From the NCBI GenBank assembly GCA_000999595.1, contig LCJH01000003.1, forward strand, positions 1-32,890: a stretch of DNA of 32,890 bases, given 5' to 3'. Positions 2,944-21,908 of this stretch are shown piece by piece. The notes under the pieces are model-generated. The model searched no databases. It was not told where the DNA came from and saw only the letters and a list, made by a program, of their open reading frames with translations. The position numbers and the translations under genes are program-made. How positions within the stretch are numbered: position 1 is the stretch's first letter; each line of letters begins with the position of its first letter. Source of the DNA: Microgenomates group bacterium GW2011_GWA2_44_7 (GTDB lineage: Bacteria; Patescibacteriota; Microgenomatia; GWA2-44-7).

Positions 2944-3999
2944 ATGGAAATTAAACAGTTACTTTCGCAAGCCATCCAAAAGAGAGCCTCTGACCTTCAT
3001 TTAGTGACAGGGATCCACCCGACTTTAAGAATAGACGGAACACTTTTCTCTTTGACCGAGCACCCAATTCTGGATGGAGTTTTGATTGAAGGTTTAATAA
3101 AAGATGTCACCAATGATGAACAAAGAGAAATATTAACTGTTAATCGCGAACTGGATTTTTCCGTCGGCTTCGGAGACCAAGCGCGATTCAGGGTGAATGC
3201 GTACTATCAAAAAAGTTCCCTGGCGGCTTCGTTTAGATGGATCCCCACCGAAATCCCCTCCGTAGATTCCTTAGGCTTGCCGCCTATCTGCCATCAATTG
3301 GCTCAGCTTAGGCAAGGATTGATTCTTTTTACCGGACCAACCGGACATGGAAAATCAACATCGATGGCGTCAATTATCGCCGAAATACTTAACAACCGAG
3401 GCGTCCACGTCGTAACCATCGAGGACCCCGTCGAGTTTACCTTTATACACTCCAAAGGCATTGTCTCCCAAAGAGAAATGCACGGGGATACCCATTCATG
3501 GGCGGTTGCCTTAAGGTCGGTGCTTCGAGAAGATCCGGACGTTGTTTTGGTGGGAGAAATGCGTGATTATGAAACTATCTCCGCCACTTTAACCATTGCC
3601 GAAACCGGTCATTTGGTTTTTGCCACGCTTCATACAAACTCCGCCGCCCAGTCAGTTGACCGTATAGTCGATGTCTTTCCTGAGCAGCAACAAGCCCAAG
3701 TAAGAATGCAGTTATCCGGTACCCTGGAAGCAATAATTTCTCAAAGATTAATGCCTCAAATAAGCGGAAGGCGCACTTTGGCCTATGAAATTATGCTAGG
3801 CACAACAGCTATAAAAACTGTGGTCCGGGAAGGCAAGACTCATCTTATTGATAATATTATTCAAACCTCCTCTGAAGCGGGAATGGCCCCCTTGGAGGTT
3901 TCGCTCGCACAACTTATTCGTGACGGGAAAATTACATACGAGACCGGTCGGGAATTTGCCATCAGGCCAGATGAACTAACGCGCTTGGTCAACCGATAG
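2944..3999 (+). CDS. pilT: Twitching motility ATPase PilT
   Basis: 351 aa; SDLHLVTGIHPTLRIDG, GPTGHGKSTSMASII, REDPDVVLVGEMRDYETISATLTIAETGHLVFATLHTNSAAQSVDRIVDVFP. Confidence 0.96.
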   Translation: MEIKQLLSQAIQKRASDLHLVTGIHPTLRIDGTLFSLTEHPILDGVLIEGLIKDVTNDEQREILTVNRELDFSVGFGDQARFRVNAYYQKSSLAASFRWIPTEIPSVDSLGLPPICHQLAQLRQGLILFTGPTGHGKSTSMASIIAEILNNRGVHVVTIEDPVEFTFIHSKGIVSQREMHGDTHSWAVALRSVLREDPDVVLVGEMRDYETISATLTIAETGHLVFATLHTNSAAQSVDRIVDVFPEQQQAQVRMQLSGTLEAIISQRLMPQISGRRTLAYEIMLGTTAIKTVVREGKTHLIDNIIQTSSEAGMAPLEVSLAQLIRDGKITYETGREFAIRPDELTRLVNR

Positions 4000-4015
4000 T
4001 CTTCCCAACAAGGCT

Positions 4016-5227
4016 ATGACACGTTTTCGATATCAAGCAAGAGACACTAACGGCAAACTATATAAAGGTATTGTCGAGTCACAAGATAAGCATCAGGCTG
4101 CACGCATCCTCCGCGAGAAGGACCTTTATCCGGTCGGCTTAAAGGATGAAAGCGGAGGCCCTTTTCAAAAGGCGAATGAAGCCTTAACCAGAAGAGTCAA
4201 ATTCGGCGACTTAGTCCTCTTCACCCGACAATTATCAACCATGTTTACGGCCGGATTACAGTTAACGGACGCCCTGTCACTGTTGCGCCGCCAACTTTCT
4301 AGCCGTTTCGGCGAGGTAATCGCAGATTTACAAACATCGATCGAAGGCGGAAGCTCTTTATCAGACGCCATGGCCAAACATGGAGACGTCTTTACCTCTG
4401 TCTATATCGCCCTAGTAAAAACTGGCGAATCGTCAGGGCTTCTTGACGAAGTATTAACCCGTTTGGCCGATAATTTGGAGAAGGAGCAAGAATTTCGGTC
4501 AAAGGTAAAAGGGGCGATGATCTATCCCATGATCATCATTGTAGGCATGGTACTCGTAATTATTGTGATGATGGTCTTCGTTATTCCCAAAATGACACAG
4601 CTCTACCAAGATTTTGGCGCGACTTTGCCGATGCCAACCCAAATCTTAATTAACTTTTCAAACCTGATAAGTAACTTCTGGTGGCTATGGTTGCTGCTCT
4701 CCATGGGCTTTCTTTACGGCTATCAAGCCTATTACAAAACAAACACCGGCCGGCACCACCTGGATAGTTTCTACTTAAGATTGCCTATTTTGGGTGGTCT
4801 GAATAAGACCATGATTATGACGGAGTTTACTCGGACCATGAGTCTTCTTATTAGCGCCGGTGTTTCCATGATTGAGGCTTTGAATATTGTCGCTAAGGCA
4901 ATGGGAAACATCCTTTTTGAAGACGGGGTAAAATCGGCTTCTACCCAAGTGGAAAAGGGGTTCCCCCTCGCTTACGCTTTGGCTCAAACAGAAGTTTTTC
5001 CACCCATCGTCACGCAGATGGTTTCAGTGGGAGAGGAAACCGGGAAAGTTGGCGAAGTCCTGGGAAAATTATCGCGGTATTTTGAAAGTGAATCTGAAAA
5101 TTTAGTCAAGGGTCTGACCTCCGCCATTGAACCGCTGATTATTATTGTTTTAGGTGTCGGTGTCGCCTTTCTTGTAGTGGCAATTATTATGCCTATATAT
5201 AGCCTAACTTCACAGTTCAGTCCTTGA
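4016..5227 (+). CDS. pilC: Type IV pilus inner-membrane platform protein PilC/GspF
   Basis: 403 aa; two T2SSF domains (FTRQLSTMFTAGLQLTDAL; FTRTMSLLISAGVSMIEAL), VGEETGKVGEVLGKLSRYFE, C-terminal TM segment. Confidence 0.95.
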   Translation: MTRFRYQARDTNGKLYKGIVESQDKHQAARILREKDLYPVGLKDESGGPFQKANEALTRRVKFGDLVLFTRQLSTMFTAGLQLTDALSLLRRQLSSRFGEVIADLQTSIEGGSSLSDAMAKHGDVFTSVYIALVKTGESSGLLDEVLTRLADNLEKEQEFRSKVKGAMIYPMIIIVGMVLVIIVMMVFVIPKMTQLYQDFGATLPMPTQILINFSNLISNFWWLWLLLSMGFLYGYQAYYKTNTGRHHLDSFYLRLPILGGLNKTMIMTEFTRTMSLLISAGVSMIEALNIVAKAMGNILFEDGVKSASTQVEKGFPLAYALAQTEVFPPIVTQMVSVGEETGKVGEVLGKLSRYFESESENLVKGLTSAIEPLIIIVLGVGVAFLVVAIIMPIYSLTSQFSP

Positions 5228-5368: not shown

Positions 5369-7432
<2,064 letters not shown>

Positions 7433-9483: not shown

Positions 9484-10479
9484 ATGAAAGTACTAATCAC
9501 CCACGCCAACGGCTTCATGGGTAGCCACCTCATTGATCTTTTAATCACCAAAACAAATACAAAAATATATGGCTTGTTTTCCCCCAGAACTCCCACTCTC
9601 AAAAACTTTAAACATCTTAAGAACTTAAGTTCAAAAGTTACCCTGCGAGAGGCTTCTTGTCTGAACTCCCGCGCACTTCAGCAAGCGGTTAAAGAAATAA
9701 AACCGGACATCATCTACCATTTTGAGAGGTTTACCCGGCCGGGACATGCTTGGGACAAGCCAAAAGATGCCTACGATCTAAATGTTTCCGGAACCCAAAA
9801 CCTATTGGCCTCTCTGGGCGGAAATAATAAAATTCGCGTAATCATCGAGTCTTCTGCCTCAATATACGGAAATGTTTCCCAGGCAGACCTGCCGCTCAAA
9901 GAAACTTCTCCGTTTTATTTATCAGAAGTCTCAGGACCATATGAGTGGAGCGTCGCCGCTCAAGAAGCGGTTATTCGAAAATTTATCTTTGAACAAAAGT
10001 TAAATATTATAGTCGGTCGGTCCTTTAATATTGAGGGACCTCGTCGGCGGACAGGCTTTGCCACTTCGGATTTTGCTTATCAAATCGCCATGTTGGAATT
10101 CCTAAAAGATAAAAAATCAACCATTAAAGTCGGCAATTTGGCCGCCAGACGAGATTGGACCGACGTCCGAGATGCGGTCAAGGCTTATTATCTCCTTTCT
10201 CATAAGGGCAAGTCCGGTGAAGTATATAACGTCGGGTCCGGAGTCATTAAGTCAATCAATGATGTTCTAACCACACTACTCAGTTATTCAAACATCACCA
10301 ACTACCAGATTACCCAGGACCCAAAGCTTGGCCGCCCGGTAGATATCCCCATGCTCCAAGCAGACGATTCTAAACTAAAAAGTACCACCGGCTGGAAACC
10401 GACCATCGCTTTCGGTCAAATGATGGAAGATATTTTGGAGGATTGGCGAGAAAGGGTCAAAATAGCTGAATATGACTGA
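9484..10479 (+). CDS. Extended-SDR NAD-dependent epimerase/dehydratase-like protein with altered active-site motif
   Basis: 331 aa; [16 protein letters not shown] Rossmann motif, [55 protein letters not shown]. Confidence 0.85.
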
Positions 10480-11830
10480 AGAAAATCCAGGCAATCCCAT
10501 CGGCAAAGTCAACCAGGTAGAGATAACGGCAGAAATTGAGAAGTCGTTTTTGGACTATGCGATGTCGGTAATTGTCCAACGAGCCCTCCCCGATGTTCGA
10601 GACGGATTAAAGCCTGTCCATCGGCGAATTTTGTATGCCATGGAGCAGATGTCACTCCATCACAGCGGCAAATATACAAAATCGGCCAAGGTGGTCGGAG
10701 AAGTTTTGGGAAAGTATCATCCACACGGAGACATCCCCGTCTATGATGCTCTCGTCCGACTGGCTCAGGACTTCTCGATGCGCTACATGCTGGTGGATGG
10801 TCAAGGAAACTTTGGCTCGGTTGATGGTGACAGTCCCGCCGCCATGAGGTACACGGAGGTCAGATTAGCCGCAATTTCCGAGGAAATATTGGCCGATATA
10901 AATAAAGAAACTGTTGATACGACCGCAAACTTTGACAACACCCTAAATGAACCTACCTATCTGCCTTCAAAACTGCCGAATCTCTTACTTATGGGCTCAG
11001 AGGGTATCGCCGTCGGCTTGGCCACCAAAATTCCACCGCACAATTTAACCGAGGTTATAGACGCGGTCTCATATGCCATTGGGCACGGTAAGGCCATAAT
11101 CAATAAACACCAAGAGGAATCAACATCAACCGAAACTGTCAAAGATGTCTTTGACATCCCGAAAATAAGCTTTGAAGGCAAAGACACAAAAAAGCTGGAT
11201 TTAGTCACTCCGACAGAAGTAAGTTTTGAATCCGAGGCAACCGTGGACGACCTCGTTCAATTTATTAAGGGACCCGATTTCCCAACCGGAGGAGCCATTT
11301 ATGACGCCAATCAAATAAAGGAAGTTTATGCGACCGGCCGGGGCAGAATTGTCATGAGAGGCAAAGCAGAAATTGAAGAGGGTAAAGGAGGAAAGTCACA
11401 AATAATTATCTCGGAAATTCCATATCAGGTAAATAAAGCGGAAATGGTAGCCAGAATCGCCCAGCTGGTCAAAGATAAAAAAGTCGAAGGGATATCAGAT
11501 CTAAGAGACGAATCAGACCGAGAAGGCATCAGAGTAGTGGTAGAGTTAAAACGCGACGCCAGACCCAAATCTGTTTTAAACAACCTTTACAAACATACCG
11601 CTCTTCAGACAACATTCCCGGCAAACTTTGTCGCTCTGGTTGACCAGACACCCCAAACATTGACCCTAAAACAGATGATTGTGGAGTTTGTCAAACACCG
11701 ACAACAAGTAGTTGTCCGCCGGTCAATTTATGACTTAAAGCAAAACCGAGCCAGGGCCCGAACTTCAATCAGTAGCCATCTTGGATATGCAGCTAAGGCG
11801 TTTGGCCGCACTGGAAAGACAAAAAATTGA
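10472..11830 (+). CDS. gyrA: DNA gyrase subunit A, N-terminal part (frame lost after [15 protein letters not shown])
   Basis: [51 protein letters not shown]; diverges from GyrA after NRARAR into [22 protein letters not shown]. Confidence 0.9.
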
Positions 11831-13025
11831 AGACGAATATAAAGCGGTGATGAAGGTGATCGCCTTTTTAGAAGATCTACTTAAACATCCTGAAAAAATC
11901 TTGGTTGCAGTTGGCGACGAGCTCTCGGAACTGAAACAAAAATATGGCGATGAGCGCCGAACCAAAGTCTACAAATCTCCTATCGGCGAATTTTCCGAAG
12001 AAGATCTCGTCCCGCTTGAGGAAACAATCATCACCATCACCGGCACCGGTTATATCAAGCGGCAAAACCCTTCGGTTTTTAAGGCACAACATCGAGGGGG
12101 CAAGGGAGTGATGGGCATGGAAACCAAAGAAGAAGACGAAATTGCCCACCTGGTTGCGGGAACGACCCACGATGACCTTTTCTTTTTAACCTCCAAGGGT
12201 CGAATTTTTAAGGTAAAAACTTGGGAATTACCGGAAGGGAGCAGACAGTCAAAGGGTCAAGCCTTAGTAAATTTAATTAACACCGAGCAAGACGAAACGG
12301 TTCAATCGGTTTTGGCAATCAACCCTAAGCAACACGAAGGCCAGAAATATTTACTACTAGTAACCAGAAAAGGAACGGTTAAAAAGTCCGCTATTGCTGA
12401 TTATGAAAACATACGTACTTCGGGACTGATTGCGATTAAACTGGAAGCGGGTGACGAGCTGGTCTGGGCAAGGACAACTTCAGGCGAAGATGACATTCTC
12501 CTGGCAACCCATGAGGGCAAGTCAATCAAGTTTAAAGAAAAAGATGTCCGGCCAACCGGCAGAGATACGATGGGTGTAAGGGGAATCCTTTTGGGCAAAG
12601 AAGACTACGTTATCGGCATGGAGTCATTCCCACCAAAAATGACGGTGCCGGAGGATAAACGGAAGAAAGTTTTTAGAGACATTCTCGTGGTGATGGAGAA
12701 GGGAATCGGAAAAAGGACACCGATTGGCCAGTTCCCGGTTCAGAACCGAGGTGGCCAGGGGGTGAAAGTTGCTCAAGTAACGCCAAAGACAGGAAAGGTA
12801 GTTGCGCTGCAGATGGTCGATCAGACATATGATGAAGTCGTCTTAACAAGTAGAAACGCCCAAGTAATTAAGCTTCCTTTAAGGAATATTCCCGAGCTTT
12901 CGCGAGCCACCCAAGGGGTAATTTTAATGCGTTTCCAAAGTAAAGATGATAGCGTGGCGGCGGTAACCTGTCTTTTACGAGAAGGCGGGGAGGAAGAGAC
13001 AACGGAGACGGTGAAGAGTAAGTAG
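11781..13025 (+). CDS. gyrA: DNA gyrase subunit A, C-terminal part (other frame; homology begins ~11760)
   Basis: In frame from ~11760: [30 protein letters not shown]; GyrA-box-like QHRGGKG; beta-pinwheel repeats to 13025. Confidence 0.88.
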
Positions 13026-15356: not shown

Positions 15357-18300
15357 TTAAAGATTATTTGGAACGATGGTAACGCTGCTGGCTAGATGGT
15401 TACCGATATACATGCGACCAAGACTGAAGTTCTCCGCCATTCCAAACGGACTGTTAACAAACTGTTGACCGACTACCGCGTAGGTACTTGGGTCGACAAT
15501 CAGTAGTTGATTGTCATGTTCGGCAGCAATATAGATCTTTCCCGTTTGTTGACTAACTCGTATTTCACCACCATCGCCGGTATCACCCAAAACCGTTGAG
15601 GTTTTAAAGGTTACTCCGCTAGGGTCGGCACTCAGTACATAAAGCGTGCTGGGGATATCAAAATCAGAATCAAAAGCAACCATTGTATAGACTTCGTTAG
15701 TGGTAGGGTTTGCCTGGATGTAAAACGGTACACCACCGGTTGAGAAAGTTTGGATCAGTTGTCCGGGATTTGAGCTGATATCGAATATTTTGATGTTTTT
15801 ACCATCCCTGTTAGAAACGTAAAGCTGGTTCAGGTTGGGGTTGACAGCGACACCGAATGAGCCGGAATCTGTACTGAGACAGCCGACCAGGGTGTTGCTA
15901 ACAGCATCGATAACGGCAACTCGGCCGGGACCATAAAGGGCCACATAGACTCTTTTTGTGGCGTTATTCGCAACCATATTAGTCGGAGAACCTGCACATT
16001 GTATCGGCGATAACGGATCATCTAGCTTAATATCTTTTACTTTTAGCATTAACCGTGCGTCGATTACGGAAACAGTAGTGCCGCCGCTATTACCGACAAA
16101 GACTCTGTCGTTAACATAAACCACACCCCACGGCCGTAAACCAACTTTTATTGTTCTTATCGTCAGTTTTTGAATCTCATCCCAGATATCGACTCGACCT
16201 AGGTCAGCCGAAGCCACATACAGTCGGTTACGAAGAGTGTCTACCGCCATACCCTTAGGACGTACAACAGTAAATGGGGTGGGAGTAGGGGTCACGGTTG
16301 GCGTTGGTGTCGGAGTTACAGTAGGAGTTACCGTCGGTGTTGGTGTGGGTGTCAAGGTCGGGGTAGGCGTCACCGTTGGAGTCGGCGTCGGGGTAATAGT
16401 AGGCGTGGGAGTTGGTGTAGAGGAAGAACAGATAGCTAAATCCCTCCAATTACCACCGGGGTAATAGCCTGAGGACATTCCTGCTTTAAAACCAACTGAA
16501 ACAGAGGTACTGCTTCCTGTATCGATGGTTCGACTATATGTCTGCCAGACACCGCCGTTACCATTAGGATAAGAGCCGAATCCGTCGAATTTATTTACAT
16601 ATACCCAATTGAAGGGGCTGCTATCAAAGTCGAAGGCAGAATACGCCCCGAGTCTATAGGCAACTTCAGTCCAGTAATTCAGCCCCGGATCGCCCTTCAT
16701 GGAAACGGTGATACTGTAGGTACTTCCGGGAGAAATGCTGTAAGTTTTAACTCTCGCCGAAGAACCGGAACTATTCAAGTAGGCGTATAAGAAGCTTGGT
16801 GTACTCCAACTTGCAGGTGAACCCCATGGAGCATCCCAGGCACTATTCCAACTTGGCATAGAGCTCAGTGAATCATAAACCACACAATTCGGAGGCGGTG
16901 TCGGGGTGGGAGTAACCGTCGGCGTAGGTGTAGGGGTCACAGTCGGAGTTGGAGTAGGCGTGGGAGTAACGGTTGGTGTAGGGGTTGGTGTCGGAGTAGG
17001 TGTTTCCGTTGGGGTAGGAGTTGGAGTCTCGGTCGGTGTTGGAGTAGGTGTTTCAGTTGGAGTCGGCGTAGGTGTAACCGTGGGTGTCGGAGTTGGCGTC
17101 TCAGTGGGTGTAGGCGTAGGAGTCACCGTAGGTGTAGGCGTAGGTGTTTCCGTTGGGGTAGGAGTTGGAGTCTCGGTCGGTGTTGGAGTAGGAGTCACCG
17201 TAGGCGTAGGTGTAGGAGTTTCAGTTGGAGTCGGTGTAGGAGTCGGTGTAGGAGTTTCTGTAGGTGTAGGTGTGGGGGTCGGAGTAGGTGTAGGTGTAAT
17301 TGTGGGTGTAGGCGTGGGGGTAACGGTAGGTGTGGGAGTAGGCGTAATTGTCGGTGTTGGCGTCGGAGTTGGAGTCTCAGTCGGAGTAGGTGTAGGGGTA
17401 ATTGTTGGCGTGGGAGTAGGTGTCACCGTGGGCGTAGGGGTCGGGGTCACAGTCGGCGTGGGCGTTGGAGTTTCCGTCGGTGTGGGCGTCGGTGTCACAG
17501 TGGGTGTTGGTGTCGGTGTTTCTGTTGGTGTAGGGGTAGGAGTAACCGTCGGTGTTGGGGTGGGGGTTGGCGTCGGAGTTGGAGTTGGAGTCTCAGTGGG
17601 AGTAGGCGTAGGAGTAATTGTTGGAGTCGGTGTAATAGTAGGTGTTGGTGTTGGGGTTACCGTGGGGGTAGGCGTCGGGGTCGGAGTAGGTGTAGGTGTA
17701 ATTGTGGGTGTAGGCGTGGGAGTAGGAGTCTCTGTGGGCGTAGGGGTTGGGGTAGGTGTCGGAGTTGGGGTGGGTGTTTCCGTAGGAGTTGGTGTAGGCG
17801 TAACAATTGGGGTAGGAGTTGGAGTAACCGTCGGGGTTGGAGTCTCTGTGGGCGTGGGCGTTGGTGTAGGGGTTTCTGTTGGTGTAGGTGTGGGAGTTTC
17901 CGTTGGTGTGGACGTAGGGGTCGGTGTAGGAGTAATTGTCGGCGTCGGCGTTGGTGTTTCCGTAGGTGCAGGAGTAGGTGTTACCGTCGGAGTCGGTGTC
18001 GGTATCTCTGTCGGAGTCGGTGTCGGGGTGGGATCTACATCGTAACAGAAAGAAGCATGGCTAAGACCGGCATTCCCCGGGGCTTGCAGATTGTTGTCCC
18101 CGAATGCCTCAGCGTACTGGTAGATATTAGCGCTTGGTCCACCCTTGACGATAACGGCATCAACCCCGAAAGTTGAGAGCCAATCAAAAGACTTGTCCCC
18201 TTCATCGGCCGAGACATCACTCAGAGTCAGGTATTGAGTTGAACCATCGGCTAATAAGACGTCGTAAGTGCCATTGGCGACAGGATCCACCCGATACGCT

Positions 18301-18611
18301 TCTAAAAGATCCGGTCGGATATCACTACAGGATGGGTTACCGGGAGTGGGAGACGGGGTGACGGTAGGGGTTGGAGTAGCAGTCACGGTCGGAGTGGGTG
18401 TCGGTGTTTCCGTAGGTGTTGGTTTACTTGCCAACGCAAGGGATAGCTCAGGCGCAGGAGCTGGGGAAGGAATCGGTTCCTCTGTCCACGCAAACCCAGA
18501 TGGGCTCAGGGAAGATAGGGCGAGGGAGATTGTAAGTACTAGCGAGCGCAAACCAACGACCGCTTTTTCAAGCACGTGAGTTATTCTACACCGAAGTACT
18601 GGGAAAAACAA
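15357..18611 (-). CDS. Large secreted/surface protein: signal peptide, globular domain, long PT-rich linker, CBM-like domain, short PT linker, YVTN-type beta-propeller
   Basis: 1084 aa; N-terminal hydrophobic segment; [25 protein letters not shown]...LSHASFCYD; (TP)n with E/V/I interruptions; C-terminal [18 protein letters not shown]...[24 protein letters not shown] repeats. Confidence 0.9.
16906..18030. repeat. ~1.1-kb hexanucleotide-type tandem array (GGN GTN on +; ACN CCN on -) encoding the PT linker
   Basis: Uninterrupted GGNGTN hexamers with periodic TCN/TTN-type interruptions. Confidence 0.95.
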
Positions 18612-19300: not shown

Positions 19301-20416
19301 ATGAAAACCCAACAATCTCAACCGAAAGAAAATGAAATGGACAGTAATATACTATCAGTCGCTAAAACACTTTTATGTTTTAGGACTGTAGCTGGGGCTA
19401 CAGATGAGTTTGAAGGGGCTTTTTCATATATAGAAAGGTGGGCTGCCACTCACGATTTCGACATCGAGCCGTTTACTTGCAATGGTATCCGATCTTGCCT
19501 TTTAAGCGGTTCCTCTAAAAAACTATTTGCTCCAGATATCATTCTGCATGGACATGTCGATGTTGTTCCGGCACATGATGAAATGTTTCAGCCAATGATT
19601 CTGGGAAATAAATTATATGGACGAGGAGCGGTCGACATGAAAGGAGCAATAGGAGCAATGATGGTTGCGCTTGAAAAGTTAAAACATACTAAACCTAAAA
19701 ATAAGATCGCACTATTAATAACAGGAGATGAAGAAACCGGAGGCCACAGTGGAACGGAATATATCTTAAAAACAATCAACCTGCGGCCAAAGTTGGTTAT
19801 AAGCGGAGAGCCGACAGAATTTAATATTTGCTATGCGACAAAAGGTATTATCGAAACAAAAGTTCACTTTTTAGGTAAATCCGCTCACGGAGCTCGTCCT
19901 TGGGAAGGGGTAAACGCCGTTGAGAAAGCCTCCGATTTTATTCAGAAACTTGTATCAAGATATCCTAATCCCATAGCGGCATCTTGGAAAACAACTATCA
20001 ATATCGGGATGATTTCCGGCGGTGATGCTTTTAATAAGGTACCCGGAGACTGTTATGTTGCACTAGATATAAGGTATGTGCCAGAAGAATCATCGGTCAA
20101 ACTTGTAAAAAACCTAAAAGCCCTCGGGGGAGATCGATGGGAGATGGTAAACAACGAAATTCCCCTAAATAGCGATCCGACCTCTAAGCCGATAAAATCC
20201 TTACAAGCCTTAGTCGGTAATCTGACAGGAAAGAAACCAATTCTTTATAAAGAACACTATGCTGCTGATTCCCGCTATTTTTCTAAAATTGGCATTCCGG
20301 CTGTTAACTTTGGGCCGAGCGGCGGCGGGATGCATACCGACGCGGAATGGGTTAGTTTAAAATCTCTTCAAGAATATTGCGATGTATTGGTTAAATTGGG
20401 CGACATTCATCTTTAA
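19301..20416 (+). CDS. M20-family metallopeptidase (ArgE/DapE/CPG2-like); start may be 19337
   Basis: HGHVDVVPAHDE, YGRGAVDMKGAIGAMM, LLITGDEETGG, SGEPTEF, MHTDAEWV. Confidence 0.93.
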   Translation: MKTQQSQPKENEMDSNILSVAKTLLCFRTVAGATDEFEGAFSYIERWAATHDFDIEPFTCNGIRSCLLSGSSKKLFAPDIILHGHVDVVPAHDEMFQPMILGNKLYGRGAVDMKGAIGAMMVALEKLKHTKPKNKIALLITGDEETGGHSGTEYILKTINLRPKLVISGEPTEFNICYATKGIIETKVHFLGKSAHGARPWEGVNAVEKASDFIQKLVSRYPNPIAASWKTTINIGMISGGDAFNKVPGDCYVALDIRYVPEESSVKLVKNLKALGGDRWEMVNNEIPLNSDPTSKPIKSLQALVGNLTGKKPILYKEHYAADSRYFSKIGIPAVNFGPSGGGMHTDAEWVSLKSLQEYCDVLVKLGDIHL

Positions 20417-20424
20417 GCGGAGCC

Positions 20425-20454
20425 TTGACAAAGATCACCCGTGACCAATAGAAT
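20425..20454 (+). promoter_or_regulatory. Sigma70-like promoter of leader module 2 (TTGACA-N18-TAGAAT)
   Basis: TTGACA 20425-20430, TAGAAT 20449-20454, 7 nt then ATG at 20462; same geometry as module 1. Confidence 0.65.
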
Positions 20455-20461
20455 AATCACA

Positions 20462-20542
20462 ATGAATTCCTGGTTCCTCTACATTACCCGCTTTATCCTC
20501 CCGATTATGGGTAGGAAAGCTGGTTTGGGAGGAGCGATATAA
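20462..20542 (+). CDS. Putative leaderless 26-aa leader peptide 2: MNSWFLYITRFILPIMGRKAGLGGAI
   Basis: Same length (81 nt), same ATGAATTC start and same promoter spacing as 18790-18870; followed by an antiterminator-capable stem and a terminator. Confidence 0.62.
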   Translation: MNSWFLYITRFILPIMGRKAGLGGAI

Positions 20543-20575
20543 AATAAACTAGAAAAAGAAAAAATCCTAAACCAG

Positions 20576-20604
20576 CCAACCCAAAAGGGTTGGTTTTTGT
20601 TTTT
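20576..20604 (+). terminator. Intrinsic terminator/attenuator of module 2
   Basis: CCAACCC-AAAA-GGGTTGG-TTTTTGTTTTT. Confidence 0.8.
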
Positions 20605-20712
20605 ATAAAGGATTTTTTCCGGATGGCTGGCGCTCAGTGATATCACCTAACAGCGTGTGGGAGCGGTGATATCAGCTGCCACAAAGCAGTATGGGCACCA
20701 GTCATCTGGACC

Positions 20713-20915
20713 TTCTCACCTCCCCCTCAACGGCGAGGGGGAAATTTACTAAGAAAGGAGGTGAGAAAATGGCCAGAAAGCTTTGGGCCCTTCGGGGCCC
20801 AAACGACCCGGATGACACCGGGTCGGACAGCGACCCTGACGGGTCGGGTTCCCGCGACGGGAACCCACCCGATTAGGGTTGCACGCAAGGGTTGGCAACC
20901 CGTCGACCCTTGCGT
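20713..20915 (+). other. Array of consecutive perfect stem-loops (structured RNA or DNA cassette)
   Basis: TTCTCACCTCC(20713)/GGAGGTGAGAA(20757); TCCCCCTC/GAGGGGGA; TTTGGGCCC-TTCG-GGGCCCAAA; CGACCCGG/CCGGGTCG; CGACCC-TGAC-GGGTCG; GGGTTCCC/GGGAACCC; ACGCAAGGG/CCCTTGCGT enclosing GGGTT-GGC-AACCC. Confidence 0.85.
20769..20876 (+). CDS. Putative 35-aa peptide MARKLWALRGPNDPDDTGSDSDPDGSGSRDGNPPD
   Basis: ATG 6 nt after a near-perfect SD (AAAGGAGGTGA); SD lies in an 11-bp stem. Confidence 0.5.
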   Translation: MARKLWALRGPNDPDDTGSDSDPDGSGSRDGNPPD

Positions 20916-20930
20916 AAATTTTAAAAAAGT

Positions 20931-21908
20931 ATGTCTCATCAACTCGTTAAATCACTTATCCAACCAAGGGGGATAGAGACAACCCCAAAGTTAAGGCGGC
21001 TACATCCAGTTGAAGCTTCTTTAAGGCTGCTTCTCCGTTCAAATAACCTGCTTTGCTGTGTCAGCCAAGAAACAAAAGATCAAATCAGAAAAACGATCAG
21101 AAATTGCTTTGTCTTTCAACAACCATTGACCGTAAATATTACGTTCGGGAGTTACAAAGGGAAAAATGTGCCTTCAAGAATCTACGCCAATTGGGCTGAG
21201 ATTCTAAATGTTAAATTCATGCTTGATACATTAATCAAGATTGCGGAAATATATCCCTTCGGTGTCGTTTTAGAATATGTCCTCCAAGATATTCTTTTAA
21301 CAGAACTTAACGATATAAGCTCCGACGACGTCAGTCGGTATATTGAATCATTCCAAGAAATTGTTAGTCTTTTTCAGCCGTCTTTAAGCAACATCGTTAC
21401 AATTAAAACAATTCGGTATGGAGATATCGTTGATCATCACGAATTTAAAAATAATATAAGCAAAGAAATTGAAAAGATAAAAACCGAATGGAAACTCTCC
21501 GAAAATCAAGAACTAGCCAAGGCCGCCATTGAGAGGGCGAAACGAAACCTGCAAAAAGTAAACCCTTCTGACGGTGAGATTATCGAATCAGCCATGTTCC
21601 ACACAGCATATGTCCGGACCTGCTTCACATTGGATTATTTCGAAACTAAAGAGAGAATTTTTTTGGTTCACCGAAAAACAATTTCTGGAAACAAACCGTT
21701 TATTCCTTATCGAAGTTTTCATTCGTCAGCGGTGCAATTCTGGGTAGGCGAAGGCGCCCTGGTCAAAAACGGTGTTCTCAAGCCAACAATTCTCAGTGGA
21801 AAACAACTTGGGGAGCATAACCCTTTATATTCGATAGAAAATGACGCCTTTGAAACAAGAAACCCCAACCTAAAATCTATCGCCGTCTATGAAAAAACTT
21901 CGAGTTGA
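20931..21908 (+). CDS. Uncharacterised protein; possible distant relative of the DIT1/PvcA isocyanide synthase fold
   Basis: 325 aa; ITFGSYKGKNVPSRIYANWAEILNVKFMLDTLIKIAEIYPFGVVLEYVLQDILLTELNDISSDDVSRYIESFQEIV resembles the PvcA-family order of elements. Weak match by eye. Confidence 0.6.
   Translation: MSHQLVKSLIQPRGIETTPKLRRLHPVEASLRLLLRSNNLLCCVSQETKDQIRKTIRNCFVFQQPLTVNITFGSYKGKNVPSRIYANWAEILNVKFMLDTLIKIAEIYPFGVVLEYVLQDILLTELNDISSDDVSRYIESFQEIVSLFQPSLSNIVTIKTIRYGDIVDHHEFKNNISKEIEKIKTEWKLSENQELAKAAIERAKRNLQKVNPSDGEIIESAMFHTAYVRTCFTLDYFETKERIFLVHRKTISGNKPFIPYRSFHSSAVQFWVGEGALVKNGVLKPTILSGKQLGEHNPLYSIENDAFETRNPNLKSIAVYEKTSS

Follow-up and report, generated by a model that had tools for sequence, protein, structure and literature searches.

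A predicted translation-start hairpin in a small, hairpin-filled unit of a Microgenomates genome

In the genome of Microgenomates group bacterium GW2011_GWA2_44_7, the Shine-Dalgarno sequence (SD) of a 35-codon open reading frame forms part of a perfect inverted repeat, and the initial annotation read this arrangement as a possible on/off switch. The stretch of DNA analysed (32,890 nucleotides of contig LCJH01000003.1, hereafter the window) belongs to a 1.2-Mb, 100-contig assembly, of which about 1.15 Mb was read piecewise; all energies given are model values. In the best explanation, to which we give about an even chance, the SD hairpin sits at the translation start of a small gene that would be transcribed entirely into consecutive stable hairpins, as would roughly a dozen genes of this genome, and it represses statically while the ribosome loads from a toehold. 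Computation shows the stem and how rare it is, the excess of structure in the reading frame over what codon choice explains, and the existence of the other genes of this kind.

The masked Shine-Dalgarno sequence

The stem at issue (hairpin B; this and the other features of the unit are on the + strand) has perfect 11-bp arms, TTCTCACCTCC (20713-20723) and GGAGGTGAGAA (20757-20767), and masks the 3' half of the SD. An inner 8-bp hairpin, TCCCCCTC-AACGGC-GAGGGGGA (20721-20742), has TCC 20721-20723 in common with the 11-bp arm. The initial annotation had located these arms, the inner hairpin and the ATG (20769) correctly, and the upstream strand, which it described as a mimic of the 16S anti-SD, indeed contains CACCTCC, identical to the anti-SD sequence. 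The extended SD itself, AGAAAGGAGGTGA (20752-20764), is a 13-nt perfect complement of the 16S tail of the own genome (GGATCACCTCCTTTCTA, found in L101) and ends 4 nt before the ATG. A 14-nt form, AAGAAAGGAGGTGA, is also present upstream of the genes for HU and for a 487-aa surface protein in the same genome, and related extended SDs precede many genes of sister genomes, including pilin-like and Hsp20-like ones (names from reading the sequences). Judged by sequence, the SD is therefore of a very strong and familiar kind, a recurring motif of the bacterial class. The label 'unusually strong' fits within this genome, where 430 of 682 longest-ORF starts have no SD match (88 when the best start nearby is used instead), but the SD is not unique, since the other two genes share the motif. 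The 13-nt match at good spacing indirectly supports translation from ATG 20769.

To gauge the rarity of the stem we used the 157 SD-ATG sites found in 780 kb of the own genome, for which an ORF of at least 30 codons was required. This site alone has a complementary perfect SD arm of more than 7 nt within 110 nt, the runner-up having 7 nt versus 11 nt here, and 200 shuffles of the upstream sequence gave an expectation of 0.005 sites with 11-nt arms per set of 157. The surrounding segment 20660-20900 has a minimum free energy (MFE) of -129.2 kcal/mol versus -86.9 ± 4.9 in dinucleotide shuffles (z = -8.6); in a scan of the first 780 kb of the genome, the fold of 20801-20950 ranked 4th of 15,454 windows, and about fifth when a later 372 kb was added, where the best window was about equal (z -7.0). 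Could the palindrome have arisen by chance next to a strong but ordinary SD? By simple arithmetic, inverted repeats of 11 bp with short loops are not rare in 33 kb. This reading is nevertheless very hard to credit: given an SD, 0.005 such sites are expected, and few stretches of the genome are as structured as the one that holds the site. In that its stem includes the SD beyond chance, the locus belongs to the general kind of SD-sequestering 5' UTR hairpins.

The folding model supports the sequestration that the initial annotation had proposed: some 13 kcal/mol are predicted to be needed to open 20752-20764, and almost all structures of the ensemble have GGUGA 20760-20764 paired. The idea of a true regulatory switch, be it a riboswitch, a thermometer or an attenuator under protein control, is that 20713-20742 would toggle access to the SD; it draws on the overlapping alternative stems that share TCC 20721-20723 and on the anti-SD mimicry of the upstream strand. 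The inner hairpin and the 11-bp arm do compete for this TCC, as had been noted, but the on/off switch deduced from it finds no support in the model. With the 11-bp helix forced, the model gives -47.4 kcal/mol versus -48.1 for the 8+8-bp arrangement, a gap of 0.7, and the two states exchange three base pairs only, TCC 20721-20723 with either partner; consequently neither state uncovers the 3' half of the SD: GGUGAGAA is paired whichever fold forms, and GGUGA is not freed. Refolding with temperature, for which the initial annotation had proposed probing, is not seen in the model: between 5 and 70 °C nearly all of the pairing of GGUGA persists in the ensemble, so that the opening in a physiological temperature range that would characterize an RNA thermometer is missing. 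A known sensor domain was likewise missing, as Rfam yielded no gathering-level match in the window and, in 20400-20960, only sub-threshold matches at chance level; the stem was also not found in relatives (see below). We therefore rate a switch as quite improbable. A search for tRNA or tmRNA identity yielded none. Elsewhere in the genome, a T-box-like leader (AAGGTGGTACCGC, then a terminator; L055 3050-3320, - strand) is followed by a five-codon ORF, MDDWK, the SD of which lies between the arms TTCCAGTC/GACTGGAA.

Static masking, by comparison, would still leave the ribosome a way in. The 5' half of the SD, AGAAAGGA (20752-20759), is mostly free in the model, with an opening cost of zero, and its pairing with the 16S tail amounts to -9.8 kcal/mol; the full 13-nt SD:16S duplex is worth -22.1 versus an opening cost of 13.2, a net -8.9 kcal/mol, and the 8-nt SD core alone a net -1.5 kcal/mol. 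Since the 13-nt duplex outweighs the opening cost and the toehold is free, a toehold route for the 30S subunit is energetically plausible. Provided that RNA over the leader, the ORF and the 3' end is transcribed, hairpin B would lower initiation statically, with no switching, the 30S subunit would load via single-stranded AGAAAGGA by pairing with the 16S tail, and the tail would then displace the upstream CACCTCC strand that is identical to the anti-SD. In these model terms AGAAAGGA is a plausible toehold for 16S pairing and 30S loading, and the free 5' half of the 13-nt SD amounts to a concrete, testable route onto a masked site.

The hairpin-packed unit and its surroundings

Just 3' of the stop codon of an M20 peptidase gene lies a sigma-70-like promoter candidate, TTGACA-18-TAGAAT (20425-20454), put forward on its consensus match (11/12). 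Given the position of this promoter, a 26-codon ORF, MNSWFLYITRFILPIMGRKAGLGGAI (20462-20542), has its ATG at the expected transcription start and may be leaderless. A hairpin with a T tract that resembles an intrinsic terminator (20574-20603) separates the promoter from the structured unit, and there was no promoter match between this hairpin and the 35-codon ORF.

The unit starts with hairpin A (20619-20709), in the MFE fold a CCGGATGGCTGG/CCAGTCATCTGG stem around two sub-hairpins, and continues with hairpin B and the 35-codon ORF, MARKLWALRGPNDPDDTGSDSDPDGSGSRDGNPPD (20769-20876; GC 0.68). Within the ORF lie hairpin C, TTTGGGCCC-TTCG-GGGCCCAAA (20782-20803; 9 bp, UUCG tetraloop), and hairpin D, CGACCCGG-ATGACA-CCGGGTCG (20804-20825; 8 bp); hairpin E (20830-20882; 25-nt arms, 76% complementary, with the core GGGTTCCCG-CGA-CGGGAACCC) extends across the stop codon, and hairpin F, ACGCAAGGGT/ACCCTTGCGT (20883-20915), follows the ORF and closely precedes the next gene. 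Hairpins A to F thus stand back to back from 20619 to 20915, covering the 5' UTR, the ORF and the region past the stop, and 20721-20866 holds four perfect stems of 8-9 bp. The inverted repeat at the SD that the initial annotation had picked out is confirmed; that the pattern runs on through the whole ORF had been missed. The structure of the ORF exceeds that of synonymous shuffles (z_syn -5.0; codon-order z -8.1). Outside the hairpin-rich stretch, the next gene (20931-21908, +) encodes a 325-aa protein of unknown family, has no obvious SD and has two paralogues elsewhere in the genome; the search of a collection of genome contigs returned no relatives of it.

Two other regions of the window may be mentioned. 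A GyrA-like gene is present as two overlapping ORFs (10472-11830 and 11781-13025, together 10472-13025), as if frameshifted, in reality or by assembly. In a 1084-aa ORF (15357-18611), a signal-like N-terminus is separated from a C-terminal domain by TPTPT-type repeats that occupy several hundred residues; the opposite strand carries a 379-codon frame of GVGV repeats.

Is the unit a gene at all? The 35-aa peptide is acidic and rich in Pro, Asp and Gly, has no signal peptide, hydrophobic or membrane segment by inspection, and yielded neither homologues nor domains; since other reading frames are also open in this stretch of 68% GC, the open ORF is weak coding evidence. The very strong fold, the peptide without homologues or domains and the several open frames could all be accommodated if the unit made a structured RNA of ~300 nt that does not code; the ORF, and possibly the SD as well, would then be incidental, and the SD/anti-SD mimic could act as a 16S decoy. 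We consider such an RNA unlikely: it has no Rfam family, chance is very unlikely to place 13 nt complementary to the 16S tail 4 nt before an ATG, the sequence recurs at the starts of HU and a surface-protein gene, and the other hairpin-saturated loci of the genome are clear protein genes, one of them with a Pfam GtrA domain.

Hairpin-saturated genes in the genome and its relatives

Many other extreme windows of the fold scan are protein genes that are likewise filled with hairpins, in the coding sequence and the leader alike. They include: L054 2554+ (91 aa; hairpin region 2401-2830), L073 1318- (160 aa; 836-1363), the distant paralogues L081 2765- and 1777- (162 and 197 aa; 1184-2867), L084 3169+ (322 aa; 3169-4137) and 7355- (at least 254 aa; 6591-7355), L068 6844- (297 aa; 5951-6844), L076 3452+ (153 aa, GtrA; 3452-3913) and 4892+ (59 aa; 4892-5071), and L132 5944+ (288 aa; 5600-6900). 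Besides the 35-codon unit there are at least 10 such genes; they have a GC of 0.56-0.70 and are mostly orphan. By inspection, most of the encoded proteins have an N-terminal signal peptide or membrane segment; the GtrA match was the only one that Pfam returned for seven members. Ordinary genes here have almost no folding beyond codon choice, and the hairpin-filled set contrasts with them: under permutation of synonymous codons its z_syn values are -4 to -13 versus -0.29 ± 1.36 in 260 ordinary genes. Clusters of at least 3 stems number 15 in 1.15 Mb of the own genome, and none occurred in shuffles. The strongest fold outlier of the scan (L057 9551-9700) is a long imperfect hairpin with GAAGTTGGA-like units on both arms, apparently an element of a different kind.

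The 35-codon unit belongs to this gene class by its coding structure beyond synonymous shuffles and its cluster of perfect stems; its membership rests on structure, as the peptide has no hydrophobic segment and hence lacks the export signal typical of most members, and the boundary of the class is not sharp because it was defined after the folds had been inspected. The SD varies widely in accessibility across the class (mean unpaired probability 0.01 to 0.66), so that masking is not a class rule and may be incidental. The most sensible reading of the SD hairpin is therefore that it belongs to a general hairpin saturation and that the long SD permits a degree of initiation; the dense structure would be kept for a reason at the RNA level, e.g. 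transcript stability or paced translation.

The stems might instead be imposed on the genes rather than selected in their messages. They would then be functionless products of template switching, by which quasi-palindromes become perfect, or of the insertion of palindromic elements into genes, and the masked SD would be a by-product; this is one of the options considered for the coding palindromes of nematomorph mitochondria (PMC6649704), and it would suit the near-even pairing registers (394/491/383) and the fact that the members are mostly orphan, GC-rich genes. Against it, the stems are confined to whole gene units with ordinary neighbours instead of being genome-wide, and the sense strand tends to fold better than the antisense strand: it does so in 9 of 11 loci (class CDS mean -3.8 versus -1.3 ± 4.2 in ordinary genes), which is a modest sign of RNA-level selection, the 35-codon ORF itself being reversed in this respect (-61.5 sense versus -64.9 antisense). 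Moreover, no sequence element was common to the hairpin loci, save for the leader of the L081 paralogues and short low-complexity stretches. We find a mutational origin doubtful, if less so than a non-coding RNA. The two L081 genes mentioned (27% aa identity) have leaders that are 75% identical (1796-1900 and 2781-2890) and in which GGCACATTAAATACCAGATGGCGTGTGCCGAGA and a second hairpin precede the SD. A viral origin of the class was considered and set aside: four member proteins had no relative in IMG/VR, and seven, the 35-aa peptide included, had no PHROG match.

The nearest relatives examined share only the class with this genome, and no other genome of its family was among them. The 11-bp stem pattern was absent from the 372 other genomes of the bacterial class that were searched, and blastn against 94 relatives gave short matches only, mostly over the SD and its surroundings, and no homologous locus. 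No stem clusters occurred in the scanned parts of two sister genomes (383 kb + 391 kb, 774 kb), and GtrA homologues from six sister genomes had z values of -0.3 to +1.6 over the same region versus -6.3 for the member here. There was no DNA similarity in phages and plasmids and no stem pattern in IMG/VR. Across 84,980 species the pattern was retrieved in 17 stretches, mostly repeat arrays in two Bacteroidales genomes, and only 2 of the 17 (Tissierellales, L200; Nitrospirae, L188) have a start codon right behind the stem; this is no more than a few chance matches would give. The two Bacteroidales genomes (stretches L189, L191, L193-L199, L201, L202, L204) contain many arrays of CGGAGGTGAGA-like units, which stand in both orientations and form hairpins. 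In genome G039, a sequence that matches the SD region is present in eight copies, each no more than some 100 bases away from a contig end (C2, C31, C36, C38, C50, C58, C65 and C66), which suggests a multi-copy repeat that was left unassembled.

Beyond the single locus, we propose more tentatively, as something possible and short of probable, that selection in this lineage has shaped the mRNAs of a whole class of genes into end-to-end hairpins. Most of these genes would encode small proteins that are exported or lie in the membrane, their translation would be started by extra-strong SDs, and the 35-codon unit would be the smallest of them; the literature searched yielded no description of such a class. 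If this is true, the class would be a test case for ribosome initiation and movement on structured mRNA in a small-genome lineage, and it would bear on why a cell keeps such messages, and on selection versus a mutational process that imposes palindromes on protein genes.

Comparison with known systems

SD-sequestering hairpins in 5' UTRs are familiar from translational riboswitches, RNA thermometers and ribosomal-protein leaders, in which an upstream strand pairs with the SD and initiation is lowered. The same pairing is predicted here by the model; unlike in those systems, there is no recognised sensor domain, Rfam match, thermal opening or SD-freeing fold, and the structure spans the whole ORF. 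Type I toxin mRNAs combine a small ORF with a strongly folded message and a masked SD, all of which the unit resembles (the masking by model), but the 35-aa peptide differs: Pro, Asp and Gly abound in it, it is acidic, and inspection reveals no membrane helix. Rickettsia palindromic elements are palindromes within bacterial protein genes that represent copies of one mobile element; the hairpin-filled genes are similar in location and differ in that their loci have no sequence in common, save for one paralogous pair and short low-complexity stretches.

These Rickettsia elements are mentioned in a study of the mitochondrial genes of Nematomorpha (PMC6649704), and when we searched the literature for coding mRNAs with such structure in the bacterial group studied here, the nematomorph case was the closest that we retrieved. 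There, conserved genes contain coding palindromes with long perfect repeats of up to 284 bp (PMC6649704). As in the nematomorph genes, inverted repeats lie inside coding sequence and coexist with a functional protein through the use of synonymous codons. The nematomorph repeats are long and kept identical, whereas perfect stems here measure 8-13 bp and longer ones are imperfect; the bacterial pattern consists of short stems (mostly 8-13 bp) placed back to back, in mostly orphan genes and in their UTRs too.
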